57,495 nucleotides of DNA, from positions 1-57,495 of the IMG/VR virus record IMGVR_UViG_3300044742_000040, one strand, 5' to 3'. Both the position numbers and the translations under genes were made by a program. The stretch's first letter is position 1; each line of letters starts with the position of its first letter. Below are positions 367 through 56,950 of the stretch, piece after piece. The notes under the pieces were generated by a model. That model saw only the letters and a program-made list of their open reading frames with translations, was not told the origin of the DNA and did no database searches. The DNA is from a virus.

Positions 367-415
367 GTGGAGTCGGCAACAAGGGTGTCGGCCCAGACAA
401 GGGAGGTAAGACGGT

Positions 416-1582: not shown

Positions 1583-2119
1583 TTGAAACTCAAAGCCGTT
1601 ATGATACTACTGTGTACAGTGGTAATTGTGGGTTCTCTCGCAGAAAGCAATCCTCGCCAATCAGTAGTTGAAAGACACAGCGAGATACTTGAGACAGAGT
1701 TGGTAGTTTCACAACTTCCCCCACTTGCTCAGGTAAAGCTGTTAACACAGTCTCTAGTCACCCTAGCAACATTCAAGGCAAACAAGTATTGGGGTGGCAC
1801 TCGTTGTACAAGTATCAAGTACAACTACCATTTGCTACCGGATAGTCAGATAGCAGCAGCACGATGGTATTCGTACAAGCGAAGTTCTGCTAAGTATTTC
1901 CAGTGTTCAGTTACGTTCAACACCAATCCTCAGAAGGTAGAGATATCCTTCTACCATTACTGCGGTGCTCTGATCCATGAGTTTGGTCACCTTGAGGGCT
2001 ACCATCAGATAGGTGGACTGGACGATGGATCGCATGCGCGTAACAAGCGGAACATCATGTATCCTGTGCTGTCGGATGCCAATATCCCCGAAACGTGCAA
2101 GGCACGAATATTTCCGTAA
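1583..2119 (+). CDS. Secreted zinc metalloprotease, metzincin-like
   Basis: 178 aa. The N-terminus is a signal peptide (KLKAVMILLCTVVIVGSLAES). Near residue 130 lies HEFGHLEGYH, an exact HExxHxxGxxH zinc site of metzincin proteases: three His ligands and a catalytic Glu. About 20 residues later, NIMYPVL supplies the expected Met-turn. Two or more Cys could form disulfides outside the cell. The start is TTG at 1583; AGGAG lies 21 bases upstream, and a downstream ATG at 1601 would shorten the signal peptide. A secreted protease in an early phage region is unusual; it might cut host surface or neighbouring proteins. The fold call is firm, the target unknown. Confidence 0.8.
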   Translation: MKLKAVMILLCTVVIVGSLAESNPRQSVVERHSEILETELVVSQLPPLAQVKLLTQSLVTLATFKANKYWGGTRCTSIKYNYHLLPDSQIAAARWYSYKRSSAKYFQCSVTFNTNPQKVEISFYHYCGALIHEFGHLEGYHQIGGLDDGSHARNKRNIMYPVLSDANIPETCKARIFP

Positions 2120-2135
2120 CCAAGGGAGATACAAA

Positions 2136-2874: not shown

Positions 2875-3037
2875 TAGCGATATTGTGGATGCCATTCAAG
2901 ATTTCGGTATCGCAATCCTGATCTTTTACGTGATTCTGATTCACAACAAAATGTTGGATATGCAAGATGATATCGAGCGTATCCTAGAATCCAAATGGTT
3001 TCCAGAACCAAGGGAGGTAAGTGAAGATGAAGTATAA
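2861..3037 (+). CDS. One-helix membrane protein, 58 aa
   Basis: ATG at 2861 inside the end of the previous gene. Residues 16-28 (FGIAILIFYVILI) form a single membrane helix, followed by an amphipathic charged helix (MLDMQDDIERILESKW). The 3' end contains the CCAAGGGAGG ribosome site of the next gene. It is one of at least eight tiny membrane proteins in this genome. The role is unknown. Confidence 0.6.
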   Translation: MPTVSSDIVDAIQDFGIAILIFYVILIHNKMLDMQDDIERILESKWFPEPREVSEDEV

Positions 3038-5426: not shown

Positions 5427-5606
5427 ATGTGGCAACTCAATTATCATAACCGTCCTGACTTTCTCGATTATTTCGAGGACGAGCAGGACTACGTGGATGC
5501 CATGTTCATTCTCATTGTCTACCAGAACTTCGGCATCCTGCTTCGGCAGGATATGCTGATGCAAGATTGGGAGCCGACGGGCGACCATAGGGGTGTGGCT
5601 GAATAA
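5427..5606 (+). CDS. Unknown protein, 59 aa
   Basis: ATG 8 bases after CGGAG. The product is rich in aromatic and acidic residues (FLDYFEDEQDYVDAMF) with a short hydrophobic stretch (FILIVYQNFGILL), perhaps an amphipathic helix. No family was recognised. It is followed by 259 bases without a clear gene. Confidence 0.6.
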   Translation: MWQLNYHNRPDFLDYFEDEQDYVDAMFILIVYQNFGILLRQDMLMQDWEPTGDHRGVAE

Positions 5607-5629
5607 CGTCAGCACGATGGCGTAAAGCA

Positions 5630-5861
5630 CTACCGGCTCAGACATGAGTTCTCCGAATGGGGGAAACGGTAGGTTTCGGGGTTATTGATTATCTAATGGT
5701 AATCGTGCCCCCGGTTGTGGGTAAATCCATAATCCCACCATCCCACTAATTTCTAAGTTCGGGGGTAATGACGAGTACGGAGTTATGGCGACTAGCTCAG
5801 CGGCCAAGTCCATGACCGAGGAAAGGCTTTGCCCCCGAAGTTTGTGAGCGACCAAGGGAGG
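5630..5861 (+). promoter_or_regulatory. Switch-like structured leader with mutually exclusive helices
   Basis: The stretch 5607-5865 holds no good gene but many inverted repeats. CTACCG (5630-5635) pairs with CGGTAG (5667-5672), and GTGGG (5717-5721) with CCCAC (5734-5738). The core CGGGGG (5760-5765) can pair either with CCCCCG upstream (5708-5713) or with CCCCCG downstream (5832-5837), but not both. The extended ribosome site CCAAGGGAGG (5852-5861) follows at once. This is the architecture of a regulatory leader controlling the gene at 5866; the ligand or trigger is unknown. A 20-codon ORF at about 5784 is possible but unsupported. Confidence 0.5.
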
Positions 5862-5865
5862 TTAC

Positions 5866-6126
5866 ATGCTCACGTGGGACGAGACAAAAGCGGCTGTGCA
5901 TGAGGCACAGACAACTAGCAAAGAGGATTTTGAGCGGCATCTTGCAGACTATATCGTGCAGGATGCAGTCGGAAAGCTCATCGATGATTACGTGAAGATC
6001 ACCTTTGCGCGGTACGGTGGAGTCAATGAGGAAACTGCCGAAATCGTAGCTCACGAAGCTGCAATATTTATGACCGGAGTGCAGGTTGGCTGGTACATGG
6101 CCGAGCATGCATTCAAACGATCATGA
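5866..6126 (+). CDS. Unknown protein, 86 aa
   Basis: ATG 4 bases after CCAAGGGAGG. The product is mostly helical and acidic (WDETKAAVHEAQTTSKEDFE). No family was recognised. It is translated behind the folded leader at 5630-5861 and its stop overlaps the next start. Confidence 0.7.
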   Translation: MLTWDETKAAVHEAQTTSKEDFERHLADYIVQDAVGKLIDDYVKITFARYGGVNEETAEIVAHEAAIFMTGVQVGWYMAEHAFKRS

Positions 6127-8256: not shown

Positions 8257-8620
8257 TAATTCAACTCAGGATGGCGGCATGGAAGCTGACGAATTTTATG
8301 GGATGGCGAAGGAACCAGGCTTTCCTGATGAAATGATCTTTCAGATTCACGCAGCGAATCCAAAGAATGAAGGTACGTTCTCCCGTGAGGGTATAACTGA
8401 CACAGTTGAACTCATGGACGCCTTCATCATGGCGCGTGTCTTTGCGACTTGGAAGAAAACAGGGAACCCACCGAAGCATATGAAGATGCATGTCAAGATC
8501 GAATGGGAACCTGAAACTAACATTGCTTTGCAGATCGGTGATATTCCCTGGTTCGATGGCGACCTAGCTGGCAACGGCTTGACACAGGTAGATGGGGAGA
8601 ATAGAATCCCTCGCGCATGA
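8246..8620 (+). CDS. Unknown protein, 124 aa
   Basis: The ATG at 8246 lies just inside the previous gene; a later ATG at 8279 would also be possible. The product is acidic, with PPKHMKMHVKIEWEPETN in the second half, suggesting beta strands. No family was recognised. Its 3' end contains the promoter at 8579. Confidence 0.6.
   Translation: MVLDNSTQDGGMEADEFYGMAKEPGFPDEMIFQIHAANPKNEGTFSREGITDTVELMDAFIMARVFATWKKTGNPPKHMKMHVKIEWEPETNIALQIGDIPWFDGDLAGNGLTQVDGENRIPRA
8579..8607 (+). promoter_or_regulatory. Sigma70-type promoter
   Basis: TTGACA (8579-8584), 17 bases, TAGAAT (8602-8607). The expected start is about 8614, only a few bases before the ATG at 8617. A transcript from here would be leaderless or nearly so for the 39-aa membrane protein. 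Confidence 0.65.
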
Positions 8621-8736
8621 TCCGCAATCGAAAATGGCTATGGCTTGTGCCCGCCATATTCGTACTAGATTGGATAATTGGCCTGATCCTCATAGCTTGG
8701 GAAATCAATCTACTTAGAAAGATGCTTGACAACTAG
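8617..8736 (+). CDS. One-helix membrane protein, 39 aa
   Basis: ATGA overlap with the previous stop. A basic N-terminus (RNRKW) is followed by one membrane helix (LWLVPAIFVLDWIIGLILIAW) and a basic tail. No ribosome site is visible, in line with leaderless translation from the promoter at 8579. It is the last gene before the sRNA and transglycosylase region, so a holin-like or regulatory membrane role could be considered. The promoter at 8726 lies in its last codons. Confidence 0.6.
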   Translation: MIRNRKWLWLVPAIFVLDWIIGLILIAWEINLLRKMLDN

Positions 8737-8754
8737 GTAGCTTCATGCTAACGT
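8726..8754 (+). promoter_or_regulatory. Sigma70-type promoter of the sRNA
   Basis: TTGACA (8726-8731), 17 bases ending in TGC (an extended -10 TGn), and TAACGT (8749-8754). The expected start is 8760-8762, the first base of a hairpin. Promoter, 7-bp hairpin and terminator occupy only 100 bases. Confidence 0.75.
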
Positions 8755-8759
8755 GCGGT

Positions 8760-8825
8760 GTGTACCTCCCTTGGTACACGCTCAGGAGAGAGTCAGGGGT
8801 ATTCCTGGCTCTCTCCTTCGTTTTA
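8760..8825 (+). ncRNA. Predicted sRNA with anti-Shine-Dalgarno loop
   Basis: GTGTACC (8760-8766) pairs with GGTACAC (8773-8779), presenting TCCCTT in the loop. With the stem breathing, CCTCCCTTGG (8765-8774) is an exact complement of CCAAGGGAGG, the extended ribosome site of many genes in this genome. A terminator follows: AGGAGAGAG-T-CAGG (8784-8797) with CCTG-G-CTCTCTCCT (8804-8817), 14 bp with one wobble, then TCGTTTTA. It resembles in principle sRNAs that block ribosome sites through UCCC loops. The alternative is an attenuator in front of the transglycosylase gene. Confidence 0.7.
8784..8825 (+). terminator. Rho-independent terminator of the sRNA
   Basis: A 14-bp stem including one G-U pair, a 6-base loop and a TCGTTTTA tail. 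It is one of the strongest terminators in the window, and ends a transcript only about 65 bases long. Confidence 0.85.
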
Positions 8826-8841
8826 TGCAGATTTACAAATC

Positions 8842-8937
8842 CACGGGGCATCGATAAAAGGGTGGACACTCTCCCCCCTCCCCTCCGCGTACCCCCATGC
8901 GCGGAACCCCTGGAAGGGTGTCTACCCTAGCCCCGTG
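8842..8937 (+). ncRNA. Long hairpin RNA with C-rich single strands (6C-like)
   Basis: CACGGGGC (8842-8849) pairs perfectly with GCCCCGTG (8930-8937). Inside it AGGGTGGACAC (8859-8869) pairs with GTGTCTACCCT (8918-8928) with one G-U. The apex carries an 18-base pure pyrimidine run ending at 8886 and a hairpin CCGCG/CGCGG (8885-8904) with a CCCCC loop; another CCCC run follows. C-rich loops of this sort define the actinobacterial 6C sRNA class, which binds G-rich ribosome sites. Homology to 6C is not claimed; the likeness is architectural. Confidence 0.6.
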
Positions 8938-8942
8938 AGGTC

Positions 8943-8963
8943 ATGCAATCTAACAGGAGGTAG
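8943..8963 (+). other. Possible 6-codon upstream ORF ending in AGG AGG TAG
   Basis: ATG at 8943 opens a six-codon frame (MQSNRR) whose last two sense codons are AGG AGG, which together are the ribosome site of the next gene. Its TAG at 8961-8963 lies 5 bases before the proposed CTG start at 8969. Termination here could feed reinitiation. Its own ribosome site is weak. Confidence 0.4.
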
Positions 8964-8968
8964 CAGTC

Positions 8969-9562
8969 CTGCTAGCTTTCGCTGCCATACTAGTCGTACT
9001 ACTGCTTACCAGTAGTGGCGACGGCCAACAGCAAGCGTCACAGGAAAAGGTCAGGGTAATCGCTAACGGTACTAACGTAAGTAGCGTTAGGCAGGAATGC
9101 AAGTCGGCTGAAAAAGCCATAATTTACTACCGTGGTAAGACATGGAGTTACCAAAGGAAACTAGGTGAGACTCCGCTATCGACAAATCATCCCGAACGTA
9201 AAAAGAACGCTTGTGCATATAAGCGTTTCGTTGTCGGGAATTGGCGCAGACTTGCCAAAGCATACAGACAAGAGTACGCAAAATGGGAGTATAACTACGC
9301 ATGGTGGAAATGGCTCCCCTCCAAATGGCAAAGGATAGCTCACTGTGAAACTAGTAAAGGACACTACGTACCCGGAGACTGGCGACACAACAGTGGTACC
9401 TATCAAGGGGCATTCGGTTTCTACTACGGCACCTGGGACGCATACAAGCCAGCCGGTGCGCCTTCCGAAGCCTATCTCGCCACTCCACGGCAACAGTACC
9501 AAGCTGCCCTTAACGTCTATTCTGACCACGGCTACGGTGCGTGGGGATGCGGCGGGGCGTAG
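8969..9562 (+). CDS. Secreted transglycosylase-fold (Rpf-like) protein with CTG start
   Basis: 197 codons. The reading frame is open from 8954 to 9562 but holds no in-frame ATG, GTG or TTG. CTG at 8969, 8 bases after AGGAGG (8955-8960), is the best start. It gives a signal peptide (LAFAAILVVLLLTSSGDG), a Cys/Lys-rich middle, and a C-terminal domain of the resuscitation-promoting-factor/transglycosylase type. That domain has CETSKGHYVPGDW with the catalytic Glu, YQGAFGFYYGTWDAY, and an ending of HGYGAWGCGG. Such proteins cut peptidoglycan. It lies far from the main lysis cassette, in the early region, so it may remodel the wall early, exclude other phages, or be virion-associated. The family call is good, the start an inference. 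Confidence 0.75.
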   Translation: MLAFAAILVVLLLTSSGDGQQQASQEKVRVIANGTNVSSVRQECKSAEKAIIYYRGKTWSYQRKLGETPLSTNHPERKKNACAYKRFVVGNWRRLAKAYRQEYAKWEYNYAWWKWLPSKWQRIAHCETSKGHYVPGDWRHNSGTYQGAFGFYYGTWDAYKPAGAPSEAYLATPRQQYQAALNVYSDHGYGAWGCGGA

Positions 9563-9622
9563 GTGGCGAAGATTTCTGCAACGTATAGGATACTACAATA
9601 AAGTAGATCGCAAGCCCTGGTA

Positions 9623-10087
9623 GTGTCTGCGGTACCCGACCTAGAGGAGTTTTGTACCTCCTGTGGTGGTTGGGTATCGTATCTTCATTTCAACTACGAT
9701 ACAGGCTGGTGTATAGATTGTTCAGGTTCGATAGATCACCGAGCAAAGTGCATTCACTGTGGCAATGTACTAATCGGAAGCGACCTGTACCGCACTACGT
9801 GTCATACTTGTCGGCAAGAGCTTTGGTTAGAGAAACATGGCGACACGATAGAATTACTCATGATTGTCAGAGGCTACAGTTTTGCACAAGCAAGAGAAAC
9901 CGTAACAGAGCAAGCCCGTCCGATATGCCAAGCCTGTAATAAACCTATCAAGGGTGCCAAGGACGGGGCGCTGTTCCACAAAAGAAATGAGAACAACACT
10001 GCCTGCCATGCAGCGTATCTCAAATTCAAAGTGTTAACGAAGTCGGGCTTGACAATCACGGAAGCTCTTGCTATCATCCGTGGTTAA
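9623..10087 (+). CDS. Multi-zinc-finger protein, 154 aa
   Basis: GTG start at 9623. Cys pairs occur as CTSC, CIDC, CIHC, CHTC and CQAC, plus a final His/Cys near residue 130, enough for two or three zinc sites. The C-terminal half has a helix pair (AYLKFKVLTKSGLTITEA). It probably binds nucleic acid. It lies just upstream of the SNF2-type helicase, whose promoter is inside its 3' end. Confidence 0.7.
   Translation: MSAVPDLEEFCTSCGGWVSYLHFNYDTGWCIDCSGSIDHRAKCIHCGNVLIGSDLYRTTCHTCRQELWLEKHGDTIELLMIVRGYSFAQARETVTEQARPICQACNKPIKGAKDGALFHKRNENNTACHAAYLKFKVLTKSGLTITEALAIIRG
10049..10077 (+). promoter_or_regulatory. Sigma70-type promoter of the helicase gene
   Basis: TTGACA (10049-10054), 17 bases, TATCAT (10072-10077), in the last codons of the zinc-finger gene. 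The expected start is near 10084, placing the ribosome site CCAAGGGAGA (10093-10102) at the front of a short leader. Confidence 0.6.
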
Positions 10088-10105
10088 CCGTACCAAGGGA
10101 GAAAG

Positions 10106-11614
10106 ATGACAGAGCTATTGTTTGAGGATTTGATATCTGACGACCAGTATGAAAAACGAGATTGGCAAGAGAAGGACTTGCGTTACCTCTCGCCGATGCC
10201 ATACTCGGCCAACTGGTCACAGATGGGTTGTTTCAAAACCAGCACAGGATTGTGGCTGCTGGAAAAGAAACGAGTAAAGAACGCTCTTATCATTACGTCC
10301 AAGATGGGCAAGGGTGCGTACTTCTCGGACTTCTATAAGTGTCTGCCGGAATCATGGGAACTGTACAACCTCGGTATCCATGATGCCACGCTACGTATAG
10401 AGGACTTTGAGAAGGATACCACTATCAATGAACTGCTGTACACGATCAAGAGTGGACGGCACAACTACCCAATGGTGGTACTCGCACACTATGACGTGTT
10501 TACTACTGCTGCCAATACCAACTCTGCAAAGAAATCGAAAGATGGTATTGGCATCTTCGACAAGCTGAAGACAATCAAGTGGGATATGATTCTACCTGAT
10601 GAAGCTCACAGGTTGAAGAATCCTAAGACACAATGGACTAGGAATATCAAGAAACTCAAGGCTGAGAATAAGCATATCATGACCGGGACAGGCTTTGTCA
10701 ATAATCCTGCCGAAATGTGGTCACTGCTGAACTTCTTGAACCCTAACGAATTCTCTAGCTATTGGGCATTCCGTAACTACTTCTGCGATCAGTGGATGGA
10801 CGCACGTGGATTCAGATTCATACGTGGTATCCTCCCGCATAGACTTGAGGAGTTTCGTGCCCTACGTAAGAGACTTGGCCCTCGGCATACGATGGCTAAG
10901 GTTCACAGAGGTATTGCGAAGCCAATCGAGAGTGTTCACCCGGTTGAACTCAACGCAACACAGCGCCGTATGTACAATGAAATCAAGACGGTGCTGCGGA
11001 CGATGGATCAGAAGGGTGCCGATCTAACGTCACCGAACGTCTTGAGTCAGCTTAATCGACTGAGGCAGATTTCGGTAGCGACACCGAATGTACTCGGCCG
11101 TGAATTTAGTCAAAAGCAGAACCGTATGGTTACGGATATCGAACTGGTCGAGCCGTCGTCCAAGCTAGATGATGTAATGAAGATTCTTGAGGAGCTAGAC
11201 GAGCCTGAGCAGAAGGTGGTTGTGTTCAGTAACTTCAAAGACCCGCTCAAGCTACTCAAGGTCAGGTTGGATAAAGCCGATATCGGCTACCTACACTTGG
11301 AGCAGCATCATAGTGAATCAGAACGATACCGAATCTGGCACGACCTATTTCGTAAACCCGAATACCAAGTGTTTCTGTCTACCCTCGCATTGGGTGGCGA
11401 GTCTATTAACCTATCCTGCGCTCAGTATCTCATATTCCTCGACAGGTCTTGGTCGCCAAAGGATATGATGCAGGCAATAGGTAGAGTCTACCGACCAGGC
11501 CAACAGCATGCTTGTGAGGTTATCTACATTAACGCGGATCGCACGGTAGATTCCTACGTCAAGACCAAGCTCGATACCAAAGGAAGATGGTTCAATGAAA
11601 TCTTCGGAGACTAA
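10106..11614 (+). CDS. SNF2-family DNA helicase/ATPase
   Basis: 502 aa. Superfamily 2 motifs appear in order: motif I MGCFKTSTGLWLLEK, motif II LPDEAHRLKN (DEAH), motif III MTGTGFVNNPAEMW, then in the second domain FLSTLALGGESINLSCA and motif VI QAIGRVYRPGQ. This is the SNF2-like layout common in phage replication regions. It would use ATP to translocate on DNA, probably in replication or recombination. The N-terminus carries LFEDLISDDQYEK, a variant of the LFEEIS motif. ATG chosen 3-4 bases after CCAAGGGAGA. Confidence 0.92.
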   Translation: MTELLFEDLISDDQYEKRDWQEKDLRYLSPMPYSANWSQMGCFKTSTGLWLLEKKRVKNALIITSKMGKGAYFSDFYKCLPESWELYNLGIHDATLRIEDFEKDTTINELLYTIKSGRHNYPMVVLAHYDVFTTAANTNSAKKSKDGIGIFDKLKTIKWDMILPDEAHRLKNPKTQWTRNIKKLKAENKHIMTGTGFVNNPAEMWSLLNFLNPNEFSSYWAFRNYFCDQWMDARGFRFIRGILPHRLEEFRALRKRLGPRHTMAKVHRGIAKPIESVHPVELNATQRRMYNEIKTVLRTMDQKGADLTSPNVLSQLNRLRQISVATPNVLGREFSQKQNRMVTDIELVEPSSKLDDVMKILEELDEPEQKVVVFSNFKDPLKLLKVRLDKADIGYLHLEQHHSESERYRIWHDLFRKPEYQVFLSTLALGGESINLSCAQYLIFLDRSWSPKDMMQAIGRVYRPGQQHACEVIYINADRTVDSYVKTKLDTKGRWFNEIFGD

Positions 11615-22489: not shown

Positions 22490-24933
22490 CGCCTAAAGCA
22501 CCGGGCGCTCTATGCCATGAGTGTCCACTTGCAGACGCGCAATGCGTGAAGACAAAGAAGCCCACTCTGCATCCTGTGCGCGGTGCAATCGTTTCACGCT
22601 CACCCGGTAGACCCGAAGTTATCGCGGGAGAACCATTTGCAAGTCAGTACGGCAGTGGCAAGATTCTTGATTACCTACTAGGAATGAATGGGGTGAAGCG
22701 TGAGCAAGTCCTCCTCACCAACGTGGTACTCTGTGTTGCCCCGGAAGGCAAGATTCCTCCGGAAGCGATACGAGCATGCGCTCCTCGTCTTAGCGCCGAA
22801 CTCGCAGATATCGATACAGTTGTCGCGGCAGGAGATGAAGCAGTTAAGCTCCTTATTGGACGAGGCTCTATCGGACGATATAGGGGATATCGTCATGAAA
22901 TTAACGGACGGACGGTGGTGGCAACTAACAACCCTGCAATCGTCCTCCATGACGACTCCAAATTTCCCGACCTCAAGAGAGACTTCCAAAGAGCGTTCAA
23001 TCCGCTCCCTCCCCCCACCCTGCCACGAATAGAGGTAATCGAAGATGCCAGAGAAGCCGACGATATCCTCCGACAGCTATCAGACTCCGAATACATTGCT
23101 TGCGATATTGAGTCACGTGGAGGACTTACTCACAAAGCGACCCTTATATCCCTTCAGCTTGCAGATAGAGGAGATACTGCCTTTGTCATCGGAGAACGGG
23201 GAGGTATTTGGGACGATACCCGTTTCATTCAAGATCGACTACGGCCGTACCTTACCAATCCTGATAGAAAATACATCTGGCATGGAGGAAAGTTCGATAC
23301 CAAAATCCTCCGACATACATACGGAATCCAAGCAAGGGTAGATCATGACACTATGTTACTGTCATACGCGCTGGACGAACGATCCGGAACAGATGAAAGA
23401 GTGGGAGTACATGGGCTTGATTATCTCCTCATGGACACTTTCGGATGGCCGCACTACTCTAGCCCTGCTGTGGAACGTGCCAAGAAAACAGGAATCGTAG
23501 AAGACTATGACGAATTCTACGAGTATGCCGGTAGGGATGCCGGTGGTACTTTCCAGTTGTTCCAAGAACAGTATCCAAGGGCTGAGTCCGATGACGTTCT
23601 TAAACCATACAACCATCTATTGCTACGTGGTAACGCTTTCTGTACTGATGTAGAGCTAGACGGCATGATCTACGATGCCGACCGCGCTGGCGACATACAT
23701 GAGTTTGAGGTACTACCTGAGCTAGAGGAAATTCAGAAGCAGCTACAGCAGCATGCAGGCAATCCGTTGCTCAATGTCGCATCGCCTAAGCAAATGTCGC
23801 ATCTATACTATGACGTGTGGGGAATCAAGCATGCCATGCAGAAGCGTAAGCCCCTCAAGAATATGCCCAACCCAGAAAGGTCGATAGATGACTCAGCGCG
23901 TAAAGAGATTCTTGAAGGGCGGTTTAAGTTTCGTGGTGATACCGTCACGGAGAGAAGCGGAAATATCGTTAGACAGGTATCTGCGCTTGATGCGGACGAA
24001 AGAAGGACGTTCTATATTGGGTTTACGGAACTCTACGACCGATATCAAAAACTTGTCAAGCAAGACGGAACCTACCTCGTCGGACTTATCGCAAGAGCAG
24101 AGCTAGATGAAGATTCTAGGATTTACACTCAACTCAATCTACATGGCACAAACTCTGGACGGCTATCCTCATCGAAACCAAACCTTCAGAATATCACGCG
24201 GACAAAGAATGATCTCCCTGATATTCGTAAGCTATTCAGAGCCAGCCCAGGACGCCAGATTGTACAAGCCGACTTCTCTCAAGCGGAACTACGCTGTATC
24301 GCTCAATTTTCGGGGGACAAAGAGCTTACACGCATTTATCGTGACGACCTCTCGCTTCATCGGGAGACTGCAACCAGATTTTTCGGAGCAGATTACAAAC
24401 CCGAGGAGTACCAAACCTGCAAGAATGTAAATTTCGGGGTATTCTACGGTCAGAGTGCCGAGACATTCCAAGAGAAGCATGGAATCCCGAAGCGGCTAGC
24501 TGAGCCATACATAGCATGGGTATGGAAAACGTTTAAAGGCGTAGAAGAATGGGAGAATGAGGTAAGACGTGAAGTCAAAACCAAGCATGTACTCGTTTCA
24601 CCTTTCGGGAGAAAAAAGCGGTTCCATCTACTTACACGTGAAAACCTCCAAGCCGCTTTCAGGGAAGGAATTAACTTCTATCCGCAAAGCACTGCGTCCG
24701 ACCTCACCCTCTGTTCTGGCATTCGGCTTGCTGATGAAATCGATCGATCCAGAGCTTCAATTGGTATTCTGGTTCACGACTCAATCGTTGCAGACGTTGA
24801 GGAAGCGTACATCGAAGAATATTCCACCATCTGCGAACAAATAATGTCCTCTGTAGCCCTTGACGAACTAGGCTGGACACTTCCATTCAAGGCAGAATTC
24901 GGTGTCGGCCCAACATGGGGTGAAGCTAAGTGA
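22471..24933 (+). CDS. DNA polymerase I (family A) with N-terminal UDG-like domain
   Basis: 820 aa. Residues 1-175 resemble a uracil-DNA-glycosylase domain: CHECPLADAQC, PGRPEVIAGEPFASQYGSG, LLTNVVLC, and the APRLSAEL helix. The GE-PG-ED catalytic pattern of family 4 is incomplete, so activity is doubtful. Residues 190-370 are a 3'-5' exonuclease: CDIESRG, HGGKFDTKIL and YAGRDAGGT. The rest is family A polymerase: QADFSQAELRC (motif A), CKNVNFGVFYG (motif B) and VHDSIVAD (motif C, Ser in place of the usual Glu). Similar fusions are known in SPO1-type phages. It replicates the phage genome. Confidence 0.93.
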   Translation: MAVATVAPKAPGALCHECPLADAQCVKTKKPTLHPVRGAIVSRSPGRPEVIAGEPFASQYGSGKILDYLLGMNGVKREQVLLTNVVLCVAPEGKIPPEAIRACAPRLSAELADIDTVVAAGDEAVKLLIGRGSIGRYRGYRHEINGRTVVATNNPAIVLHDDSKFPDLKRDFQRAFNPLPPPTLPRIEVIEDAREADDILRQLSDSEYIACDIESRGGLTHKATLISLQLADRGDTAFVIGERGGIWDDTRFIQDRLRPYLTNPDRKYIWHGGKFDTKILRHTYGIQARVDHDTMLLSYALDERSGTDERVGVHGLDYLLMDTFGWPHYSSPAVERAKKTGIVEDYDEFYEYAGRDAGGTFQLFQEQYPRAESDDVLKPYNHLLLRGNAFCTDVELDGMIYDADRAGDIHEFEVLPELEEIQKQLQQHAGNPLLNVASPKQMSHLYYDVWGIKHAMQKRKPLKNMPNPERSIDDSARKEILEGRFKFRGDTVTERSGNIVRQVSALDADERRTFYIGFTELYDRYQKLVKQDGTYLVGLIARAELDEDSRIYTQLNLHGTNSGRLSSSKPNLQNITRTKNDLPDIRKLFRASPGRQIVQADFSQAELRCIAQFSGDKELTRIYRDDLSLHRETATRFFGADYKPEEYQTCKNVNFGVFYGQSAETFQEKHGIPKRLAEPYIAWVWKTFKGVEEWENEVRREVKTKHVLVSPFGRKKRFHLLTRENLQAAFREGINFYPQSTASDLTLCSGIRLADEIDRSRASIGILVHDSIVADVEEAYIEEYSTICEQIMSSVALDELGWTLPFKAEFGVGPTWGEAK

Positions 24934-49542: not shown

Positions 49543-51162
49543 TTAGCCTGCGTGCATAACTGCCGAATAAACGTCAGCAGCTTCAGAAGCATCGAGGTTT
49601 GTACGAATCAATCTGAAACCATCGAGTCCTGCGGTTGCAGAAAACGTGTGCTTCCAGAAATCAGGATGCTCAGGCTTGAAAGTCTGAGTCTGTCCTGCGG
49701 CAGTGAAGAACACTGCGAGAGTCGTACCAACGGAGTTATCGACGTACTGAAGCTCACCCTTCATCGGCACCGAAGCACCCATGATAACGGAGTAGACGGA
49801 CTTCGTTGCGGCACCGAAATCAGCCGAGTCATGGTTGGACGTTGAGCCTGCCGCAAGAGAAGCGGCAGTGTTGTAGTTGGGGGTCGGAGAAGTAGGTGGA
49901 GAAGCAGCGCCGCCACCCGTGATTACATCGACCTGCAAGCGGCCGGTGTTTGCGGTACGAACACGATCCCACGTCGTTCCATTGAATCCCATCAGGAAGA
50001 CTTGGTTCTGTGCAAGCCCCGCACCGGGGTTAGCGAGTGCGTCAGCAAGAGTAGCTGCACTCTTGGCCCTGATCCAGTTAGTCGAACCATCCCACAACAT
50101 TCCGGCTGCACCAATCATGGAAGTAGTGGGGTTACCAGTCGTATCCGACAAAGCTGCGGCGGCAGGCAACTCAGTGTCAACCGTCACAGTTGCAGAAGAT
50201 GCGGTAAGGTTAACGCTCAGTCGGCCGGATGCGTCAACTGCACTTCTCTGACCGCGAGTGGTCGCATCCTCAATGACCATAACCTGCGCTCGCTTGGAAT
50301 CGATACGTGCTGCGGCTGTATCGTTCTCGGTGAGTCCAGTACCAGCGGTTTCATCGAAGATGAATCCTGCAACCCCCACAGAGGAGGTACCGTCTGTGAA
50401 GGCAGCATTGTCAACCAACACGTTTGCAGGAGTACCGCCACCGCCTGTAATCACGTCAACTTGCAGACGCCCTGTGTTAGCTGTGCGGACGCGATCCCAC
50501 GTAGTGCCGTTGAAGCCCATGAGGAAGACCTGACCCTGTGCAAGTCCAGTACCAGGGTTAGCAAGCGCATCGGCCAGCGTTGCTGCACCTTTTGCACGAT
50601 CCCATGTAGTTCCATTGAATACATGACTGAACACACCGACACTTGTAGTCGTCGGGTTAGCAGTTGCATCGGCAAGTGCAGCAGTAGCAGGAAGTTCCGA
50701 GTCAACCGTGACCGTACCCGTAACCGTGGTTGACGTGAGAGAAACAGGAACAACCGTACCGGATGCAACACCTTCAATCAGTAGTGCGCGACGAGTAGAC
50801 AGACGAAGGTTCGCAAACTGGTTTTCTGTAACCGTCGTCGTACCAGTATCGTCAAGCTGTGCCTGAATACCGACTGCCTGAATTCCTGTACCAGTGGAAT
50901 CCTGGGCAGTAGCGGCGGACTTTGCACGATCCCACGTTGTACCGTTCCACGTGAGATTCGCTGCACCGACCATACCGGCGGTCGGGTTTCCTGCACCGTC
51001 TGCCAAAGCAGCAGCAGTTGAAAGCTCTGTATCTACTGTGACAGTTGCAGATGACGCTGTTAGATTGACGGAGAGACGACCGGACGCATCGACTGCAACT
51101 TGCTGCGATGGAGTAGTTGCATCCGAAATCTTCACGTCGGGGAGTACGCGAACGTCAGCCAT
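49543..51162 (-). CDS. Repetitive structural protein, 539 aa
   Basis: The chain is built from repeated beta units: VDASGRLSVNLTASSATVTV occurs twice, and a unit ending in QVFLMGFNGTTWDRVRTAN then TGRLQVDVITGGG occurs twice, with shorter variants of NGTTWDRAK. The last 100 residues differ (MKGELQYVDNSVGTTLAVFF) and may be a separate head. Identical residues are coded by different codons in the two copies. A virion fibre, decoration or adhesion protein is likely. Confidence 0.7.
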   Translation of the reverse strand: MADVRVLPDVKISDATTPSQQVAVDASGRLSVNLTASSATVTVDTELSTAAALADGAGNPTAGMVGAANLTWNGTTWDRAKSAATAQDSTGTGIQAVGIQAQLDDTGTTTVTENQFANLRLSTRRALLIEGVASGTVVPVSLTSTTVTGTVTVDSELPATAALADATANPTTTSVGVFSHVFNGTTWDRAKGAATLADALANPGTGLAQGQVFLMGFNGTTWDRVRTANTGRLQVDVITGGGGTPANVLVDNAAFTDGTSSVGVAGFIFDETAGTGLTENDTAAARIDSKRAQVMVIEDATTRGQRSAVDASGRLSVNLTASSATVTVDTELPAAAALSDTTGNPTTSMIGAAGMLWDGSTNWIRAKSAATLADALANPGAGLAQNQVFLMGFNGTTWDRVRTANTGRLQVDVITGGGAASPPTSPTPNYNTAASLAAGSTSNHDSADFGAATKSVYSVIMGASVPMKGELQYVDNSVGTTLAVFFTAAGQTQTFKPEHPDFWKHTFSATAGLDGFRLIRTNLDASEAADVYSAVMHAG

Positions 51163-53888: not shown

Positions 53889-54126
53889 GTTTACACCCCC
53901 ATGTAGTTTAAGAACAACGGTAGTGGACTATTTGGCTCTGCGACGAAAGAATGCTTCTTAAATCCAAGACTTTCGGCCAGGCTTGACGGATGGTCGTGTT
54001 GCCAATCCTGCAAATATGCAATTACCCTGCAAATGACCACTATGCAAGTAATAGTTTTGCTCAACCATGCATAAATGCAATGATTCGTCTGTGGCACAGA
54101 ACGCAACCACAACCGAGGGAGGCTCC
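53889..54126. promoter_or_regulatory. Divergent control region with TGCAA repeats
   Basis: The region between the leftward and rightward operons has CCTGCAAAT at 54007-54015 and again at 54026-54034 (19 bases apart), ATGCAATTA at 54016 and ATGCAAGTA at 54042, and a further TGCAA near 54076. The reverse complement ATTTGCAGG appears at 55046-55054. This looks like an operator array for a regulator of both directions. No canonical -35/-10 pair was found for the late operon. Confidence 0.5.
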
Positions 54127-54574: not shown

Positions 54575-54634
54575 CCAAGGAGGCACGGCGCTACATACGC
54601 GCAAAAGCGACCGTAAATTTCGTGCCAAGGGAGG
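54575..54634 (+). promoter_or_regulatory. Folded leader of the 54643 gene
   Basis: GGCACG (from 54582) pairs with CGTGCC (54621-54626), enclosing TACGCGC-AAAA-GCG...CGTA. An AAGGAGG lies at its 5' side and the extended ribosome site CCAAGGGAGG (54625-54634) overlaps its 3' arm. Folding would restrict access to that site. Confidence 0.45.
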
Positions 54635-54642
54635 AACACAAA

Positions 54643-55790: not shown

Positions 55791-56009
55791 ATGATCACCA
55801 TAGAGGAAGCCAAACAACTTCAGCACCGTGATAGATTGATTGACTCACGGGATGGCGCACGTTGGTATGTAAACGGTAGAATACAAACATGGAAGCGTGA
55901 CGCTAGTAGAATCCGCGTTCCACTAAAGCATGGACTCTACCAGTACGGTGCGCTGCATGATTCTGACTTCACGAATGGAGTCTGTGCGTACATGACCAAG
56001 GAAGGGTGA
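55791..56009 (+). CDS. Unknown protein, 72 aa
   Basis: The ATG follows GGGGGT. The chain is mixed alpha/beta with many basic and aromatic residues (RDGARWYVNGRIQTWKRDAS). No family was recognised. Confidence 0.65.
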   Translation: MITIEEAKQLQHRDRLIDSRDGARWYVNGRIQTWKRDASRIRVPLKHGLYQYGALHDSDFTNGVCAYMTKEG

Positions 56010-56928: not shown

Positions 56929-56950
56929 AGAATCTACCAAGGGAGGCAAC

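Follow-up and report, generated by a model that had tools for sequence, protein, structure and literature searches.

A non-coding region of an uncultured phage that may supply an antisense RNA against the phage's own gene starts and that carries a C-rich leader insert

Upstream of a gene for an Rpf-like transglycosylase in a viral genome lies a compact, C-rich stretch with long stems, which raises the question of what this stretch is, and whether it or its surroundings could act on the ribosome-binding sites of phage genes. The DNA analyzed (hereafter, the window) is a single virus record from IMG/VR with a length of 57,495 bases. Relatives of the locus, all of them metagenomic, were collected by way of the helicase gene located 1.1 kb downstream of the C-rich element. 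Three records (L004, L005, and L033) duplicate L003 and L034 in whole or in part and were excluded from the element statistics, the layout comparison of 11 records, the duplex comparison, and the ortholog count. Named phages yielded no DNA relatives, either for window positions 8730–9580 with 11-base words or for positions 1–25000 with megablast, and the helicase search in bacterial genomes returned none. The phage is uncultured and probably infects Actinobacteria; the whole basis of this assignment is that the 29 matches in bacterial genome contigs were all to Actinobacteria, together with the Rpf-like domain. The features of the locus are as follows.

8726..8754, + strand: promoter-like site TTGACA-N17-TAACGT with TG before the second hexamer, as read from the sequence (putative)
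8757..8782, + strand: hairpin 1, a 10-bp stem with loop UCCCUU closed by ACC/GGU (fold, comparison, and stem covariation)
8784..8824, + strand: hairpin 2 (15 bp) followed by UCGUUUU, terminator-like (terminator scan and fold)
8842..8937, + strand: C-rich element, consisting of an outer stem, an A-rich 9-nt/1-nt internal loop, an 11-bp inner stem, a C-rich 5' strand, and an apical C-loop hairpin (fold and comparison)
8869..8886, + strand: 18-base pyrimidine run (sequence)
8955..8960, + strand: Shine-Dalgarno sequence AGGAGG of the downstream gene (sequence)
8969..9562, + strand: Rpf-like transglycosylase gene (domain match to PF06737, E-value 3.4e-11)

The analysis confirms that the C-rich element is a genuine structured RNA in which C-rich strands remain unpaired. 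Its outer stem (8842–8849 with 8930–8937) is a perfect 8-bp helix, and its inner stem (8859–8869 with 8918–8928) has 11 bp with one G·U pair. The ends of the pyrimidine run join both stems, so that its unpaired part is slightly shorter than 18 bases, and the apical hairpin (8885–8904) displays ACCCCCA. The predicted fold of 8826–8975 reached −65.6 kcal/mol, compared with −45.5 ± 4.1 for shuffled sequences (z = −4.9), and none of 200 shuffles equaled it. Thus, the nested stems of 8 and 11 bp, the 18-base pyrimidine run, and the CCCCC loop reported in the preliminary description of this stretch, which was made from the sequence alone, are all present. When the C-rich pattern CYCCCCCYYCCC was searched in the window with at most one mismatch, it occurred at only two places, in this element and at 23005 inside the DNA polymerase gene.

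The preliminary description had staked its interpretation on conserved pairing in homologous phage regions, and such pairing was found, with the stems kept in four lineages. The layout of the C-rich element recurs in 4 of the 10 phage lineages with different letters and with compensatory changes in the stems; L003 and L006 have the same architecture as the window, and L007/L008 have it in part (L004 is a near copy of L003, and L008 of L007). In the window, L003, L006, and L007, the element follows hairpin 2 and precedes the rpf-like gene. The inner-stem strand, each with its complement, is AGGGUGGACAC in the window, AGGAUGGACUA in L003, GUGGCGAGC in L006, and GGUAGGCGCG in L007, with several positions altered on both sides when the stems were set by hand. 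The carriers have in common an A-rich 5' linker, which faces a single base or a few, and a C-rich 5' strand; L007 is without a clear outer stem and without the C-loop apical hairpin. In the stem comparison, L008 was dropped because it nearly duplicates L007, and the outer and apical stems were compared without L007. Because the RNAalifold covariation term on a MAFFT alignment of the element was weak (−0.28), the covariation support for it rests on the hand-set stems. No such element was found in L009, L010, L031, L034, L035, or L036, in which the ribosome site lies closely 3' of hairpin 2, and a search of viral contigs for its exact stem pattern gave 0 matches. Judging from this comparison, the element is a real but lineage-specific insert in the rpf leader, 3' of hairpin 2 and 5' of the Shine-Dalgarno site.

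Some smaller features of this leader were also recorded. The sequence GAGGTC(A/G)TG is conserved shortly 5' of the rpf Shine-Dalgarno site (window 8936–8955, L003, and L006), and in L003 and L006 its ATG/GTG is directly followed by TAA, a start-stop-like arrangement. By eye, the strand opposite the C-rich element in L003 and L006 has four runs of at least three G separated by short spacers and is G-quadruplex-like; the fit of the window copy is poorer. The Rpf-like gene apparently starts with CTG in the window (8969) and L003 (6901), where no in-frame ATG, GTG, or TTG is near its Shine-Dalgarno site, and with TTG in L006, L007, L009, and L031.

The unpaired bases of the C-rich element in the four lineages comprise 46–57% C and 11–17% G, and no loop sequence is common to the lineages. 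Because C-richness has been kept but no loop sequence has, action through composition is suggested, rather than sequence-specific antisense pairing. The element most likely acts through its composition, either by way of a C-preferring protein, of which we take Rho to be a candidate, or by protecting or insulating the leader. The preliminary description had favored other roles. It had likened the element to the 6C sRNA of Actinobacteria (B11), which according to the cited texts has two C-rich stem-loops and forms an Rfam family (PMC8628891, PMC6582537), and which would imply trans antisense action of C-rich loops on G-rich mRNA sites. The element shares with 6C a compact RNA with C-rich loops, and G-rich sites AAGGGGGTGA are found on late-strand genes of the window, L003, and L006. 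However, neither RNA at this locus matches the 6C model: no 6C match was obtained at the gathering threshold over the whole window, and none at E ≤ 10 over 8600–9100, where Rfam as a whole gave no match either. Instead of two stem-loops with C-rich loops, the element forms one nested structure with a C-rich asymmetric loop and a single apical C loop. Moreover, its loops differ in every lineage, though a common target would keep them, and by eye the strands are without the UCACCCCC expected against the G-rich site. We consider a 6C or 6C-like role very unlikely. It is doubtful, too, that the C-rich strand pairs with AGGAGG and hides the rpf Shine-Dalgarno site as a translational switch in cis. 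A pairing of 5–6 bp is feasible in all four lineages (CCUCC/GGAGG, UCUCC/GGAGA, GUCUCC/GGAGAC), and the summed duplex energy was borderline against shuffles (P = 0.048); nevertheless, the longest match did not exceed that of shuffles (P = 0.22), the strands paired equally well with the sites of other phages, and in the minimum-energy fold of 8826–8975 AGGAGG (8955–8960) was unpaired with the C-rich strand. A coding function is extremely unlikely, because the frame that is open at 8758–9015 (85 aa) in the window is not kept in relatives: L003, L007, L009, L031, and L034 have stop codons in each of the three frames, and the length of the stretch varies among relatives. The earlier interpretation therefore stands as regards a structured RNA with conserved pairing, falls as regards 6C identity, and finds little support as regards sequestration of AGGAGG.

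The G-rich motif AAGGGGGTGA mentioned above is common to the starts of late genes on the − strand of the window (e.g., 36112, 37809, 40895, and 51162). It also occurs in L003 and L006, and its 7-mers were not top-ranked in L034 or L036.

The preliminary description had further placed the element second in a cluster of RNAs acting on ribosome sites. The cluster is present: the first C-rich RNA, just upstream, is real (8740–8835 folds with z = −5.9). The clear evidence for a relation to ribosome sites belongs to hairpin 1 of this first RNA, outside 8842–8937. Its loop region, ACCUCCCUUGGU, is perfectly complementary to the gene-start element ACCAAGGGAGGU. This arrangement of a promoter-like site followed by hairpin 1 and another long hairpin is found in 11 records representing 10 lineages, and TTGAC with a TAnnnT second hexamer precedes hairpin 1 in all 11; a strict sigma-70 scan (four of six positions per hexamer) did not list 8726–8754. 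Hairpin 2 is the only terminator-like site in 8600–9100. Among 11 stretches with a relaxed promoter-and-loop pattern, L045, L047, L049, and L050 were rejected as chance matches, as they have no gene-start set or second hairpin. In L038 (9364), a distant relative, a promoter-like site, a hairpin with UCCUCCC in its loop, and a terminator-like hairpin precede a gene resembling window gene 14552, with no matching start element.

The hairpin 1 loop region ACCTCCCTTGGT occurs exactly once on the + strand of the window, at 8764. When its complement was searched with at most two mismatches, 9 of the 10 + strand sites were before start codons, 2–8 bases 5' of open frames of 74–502 codons; the tenth site, at 49726, is not at a gene start. 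The sequence ACCAAGGGAGGT is thus a Shine-Dalgarno element of the following nine window genes.

396..407, + strand: gene-start element GACAAGGGAGGT, before the DUF932 gene at 416
2119..2130, + strand: gene-start element ACCAAGGGAGAT, before the gene at 2136 (77 aa)
3007..3018, + strand: gene-start element ACCAAGGGAGGT, exact, before the gene at 3021 (132 aa)
5851..5862, + strand: gene-start element ACCAAGGGAGGT, exact, before the gene at 5866 (86 aa)
10092..10103, + strand: gene-start element ACCAAGGGAGAA, before the SNF2-type helicase gene at 10106
54112..54123, + strand: gene-start element ACCGAGGGAGGC, before a 129-aa ORF
54624..54635, + strand: gene-start element GCCAAGGGAGGA, before a 74-aa ORF
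55995..56006, + strand: gene-start element ACCAAGGAAGGG, before a 78-aa ORF
56936..56947, + strand: gene-start element ACCAAGGGAGGC, before a 78-aa ORF

About 100 bases 5' of the element at 5851, the window also has a match to the manA RNA (RF01745; 59.3 bits with a cut-off of 55.2) at 5568–5748 on the + strand.

The same element was enriched before genes in the relatives. In the seven type-A records, to which this count refers, it was present at 10 or more of its 12 positions before 40 of 813 ORFs of at least 50 aa on the hairpin strand, compared with 2 of 827 on the opposite strand. For 60 control 12-mers that keep GGAGG, some of which are close to the element itself, 3.3 were expected (sum of means), and the best single control reached 2–6 per record. 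Furthermore, pieces of the element were among the commonest 7-mers before long hairpin-strand genes in all five records in which 7-mers were ranked, the hairpin not being used as the query. With at most three mismatches to each record's own loop, the element was present before 7 of 7 DUF932 genes and 9 of 11 helicase orthologs (L007 and L008 each counted), as against 0 of 28 control genes (Zn-finger, 0/11; polymerase, 0/4; Cas4-like, 0/5; rpf, 0/8). The helicase of L036 and the 318-aa gene of the window and L003 are without it. The helicases that carry the element share as little as about 67% identity. These counts indicate that the element is gene-specific and has been kept over a large divergence.

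In hairpin 1 itself, the loop is conserved and the stem co-varies. The loop UCCCUU is present in all seven type-A records, with variants in L007, L009, and L035; the ten central bases, CCUCCCUUGG, are invariant in 7 of 7, and the outer arms vary with pairing kept. In the stem, 82% of cells were paired, and the covariation score was 0.577 compared with 0.205 for shuffles (0 of 500) and at most 0.149 for slid controls. This score covers the 7 of the 10 lineages whose loop has six bases; L007/L008, L009, and L035 were excluded because MAFFT put their loops out of register. In L007/L008, the loop ACCUCCCUGGU is one U shorter, and the gene-start elements, ACCAGGGAGGT and the like, are one A shorter; in L007, six of the seven sites of the shortened element are at gene starts, and type-A sites number 0. 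L035 has the loop CCUCCCCGG and one matching element, ACCTGGGGAGGT, before its 325-aa gene, the orthologs of which in L010, L034, and L036 carry type-A elements. In 10 of 11 typed examples, no loop bound more strongly than the record's own, the sole exception being the L035 helicase, for which the type-A loop was slightly better (−20.2 versus −19.2 for its own). The loop of L009 is changed too, and its 4.5 kb contain no element to match. The loop and the gene-start element therefore change together in L007/L008 and at one L035 site, not in L009; the independent changes are few, L007/L008 being one lineage and L035 one site.

Our preferred reading, to which we assign a probability of roughly 0.6, is that 8726–8960 is a non-coding RNA region from which the phage may direct an antisense RNA at the starts of its own genes, with a C-rich insert in the leader. 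The hairpins and their covariation, the common gene-start element, its restriction to particular genes, and its change along with the loop are visible in the sequences themselves, whereas the promoter, transcription, termination, and repression in this scheme, and any function of the C-rich element, are what we infer from them. The site at 8726–8754 would start an RNA with hairpin 1 at its 5' end. Hairpin 2 would terminate some of the transcripts, yielding an RNA roughly 65 nt long, and those that pass it would become the mRNA of the Rpf-like gene. A short RNA of its own may be lacking in some relatives, because several of the 11 records have a weak U-rich tail behind hairpin 2 or none. The loop of hairpin 1 would contact AAGGGA of the gene-start element, which is flanked by ACC and GGT, and the contact would extend to 10–12 bp, cover the Shine-Dalgarno sequence, and block ribosome entry. 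In this way, one RNA could tune about nine phage genes in trans, including those for the DUF932 protein, the SNF2 helicase, and small proteins. The position of the pairing at gene starts suggests repression as the direction. Transcription of this RNA could, speculatively, mark the switch from replication to lysis, since it may continue into the rpf-like gene.

The 12-mer could instead be a DNA operator with no antisense RNA involved; a phage repressor would then recognize ACC-N6-GGT both at the 8726 promoter and where genes start. The 12-mer is partly symmetric; the site at 8764 is just downstream of the promoter-like site, and the helicase element is also close behind one (10049–10077; also in L031 and L033). 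The co-change of loop and element would likewise follow from a changed repressor. However, the asymmetric centre of hairpin 1 is invariant and its arms vary yet remain complementary, the reverse of what is expected for a dimer operator, and almost all copies share the orientation of the genes and have Shine-Dalgarno spacing. In addition, TTGAC is present within 70 nt upstream of only one of the nine window elements (10092). An operator is quite unlikely on these grounds. We also judge it unlikely that ACCAAGGGAGGT is merely a good ribosome site and hairpin 1 an unrelated leader hairpin complementary to it by chance. Shine-Dalgarno sites resemble each other, anti-Shine-Dalgarno-like loops are easily found, and our screen contained many weak hairpins. 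Nevertheless, by chance a single strand of 57 kb would contain the exact antisense 12-mer about 0.003 times, and loop and element change together. Some of the positions that the element keeps also have no pairing partner at the 3' end of 16S rRNA.

An antisense RNA of the preferred kind would act by a type of mechanism that is already known. In LhrC of Listeria and in the Gram-positive UCCC-motif sRNAs RNAIII, RsaE, SprD, and FsrA, as described in the cited text, CUCCC/UCCC loops pair with GGGAG at the Shine-Dalgarno sequence and block initiation (PMC4132741), which is the action of UCCC-loop sRNAs in both Listeria and Staphylococcus. Hairpin 1 is similar in that UCCC is in a loop predicted to be exposed and is complementary to the Shine-Dalgarno sites of its targets. 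Those sRNAs are bacterial genes with bacterial targets, whereas here the RNA and its apparent targets are in one phage genome, and the targets have one element in common, which follows the changes of the loop. The c4 RNA of phages P1 and P7, the loops of which pair at a ribosome site of phage mRNA (review PMC12197685), is likewise a phage RNA acting at a phage ribosome site; however, the cited text describes one target (ant), not an element common to many genes. In the portions of the literature searched, we found no report of a phage RNA with its own target set sharing one co-changing tag. Because the antisense hairpin occurs once per genome and changes with the element, an RNA-controlled phage regulon is directly testable.

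The Start-Associated Sequences (SAS) of cluster K mycobacteriophages are the closest parallel on the target side: a Shine-Dalgarno-containing 13-mer before many genes, extended beyond 16S pairing, for which the authors left RNA or protein binding open in 2011 (PMC3203893). According to the text of a 2025 paper, the role of start-associated sequences in actinophages is still unverified (PMC12699233). The SAS consensus GGGATAGGAGCCC differs from the window element ACCAAGGGAGGT. Both are repeated, conserved sequences right before starts and are longer than 16S pairing presumably needs. In 2011, such actinophage sequences had no known partner (PMC3203893), and hairpin 1 is the exact antisense of an element of this kind. 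A broader proposal would be that the leader hairpin of a lysis-type gene silences in trans all genes with a start element, which serves as a co-evolving regulon tag; cluster K SAS and the hairpins of L085 and L105 (below) would be independent versions, and the C-rich element a second, composition-reading part. We regard this generalization as tentative and rather unlikely.

An intergenic hairpin with a SAS-antisense loop was found in Anaya, Validus, Amelie, and CrimD, exact in 4 of the 13 phages sampled. In Anaya (L056 29871, about 59870), the single opposite-strand SAS found in 30000–60835 lies in the intergenic hairpin loop CUCCUAUCC; this hairpin adjoins a terminator-like hairpin, and the region was matched in 181 records. 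In Ekdilam and Unicorn, the loop drifts and the SAS stays. Cluster K was rejected as a second case of co-change, since the SAS is unchanged where the loop changes, and the loops of Keshu, Pixie, Scarlett, SirPhilip, and Omnicron do not fit. The cluster K hairpin is thus a lead, not support, for an anti-start RNA.

DUF932 loci numbered 37 in other phages; six were already in our set, L088 and L095 were dropped as near copies, and 29 were screened. Nothing comparable was found in 29 bacterial DUF932 loci. The screen flagged a promoter in L104, and a match in L100 was rejected because it does not fold as the hairpin of L085 and L105, the only two of the screened phage loci with a strong hairpin whose loop is antisense to start sites. 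In these distant phages (L085 3440–3530 and L105 1930–2020), two tandem hairpins have identical C-rich loops, UUCCCUUCUCC and UGCCUCCUG, and their stems differ yet stay paired, with no Rfam match. Loop 2 is antisense to CAGGAGGCA, which is present before the DUF932 gene of L085.
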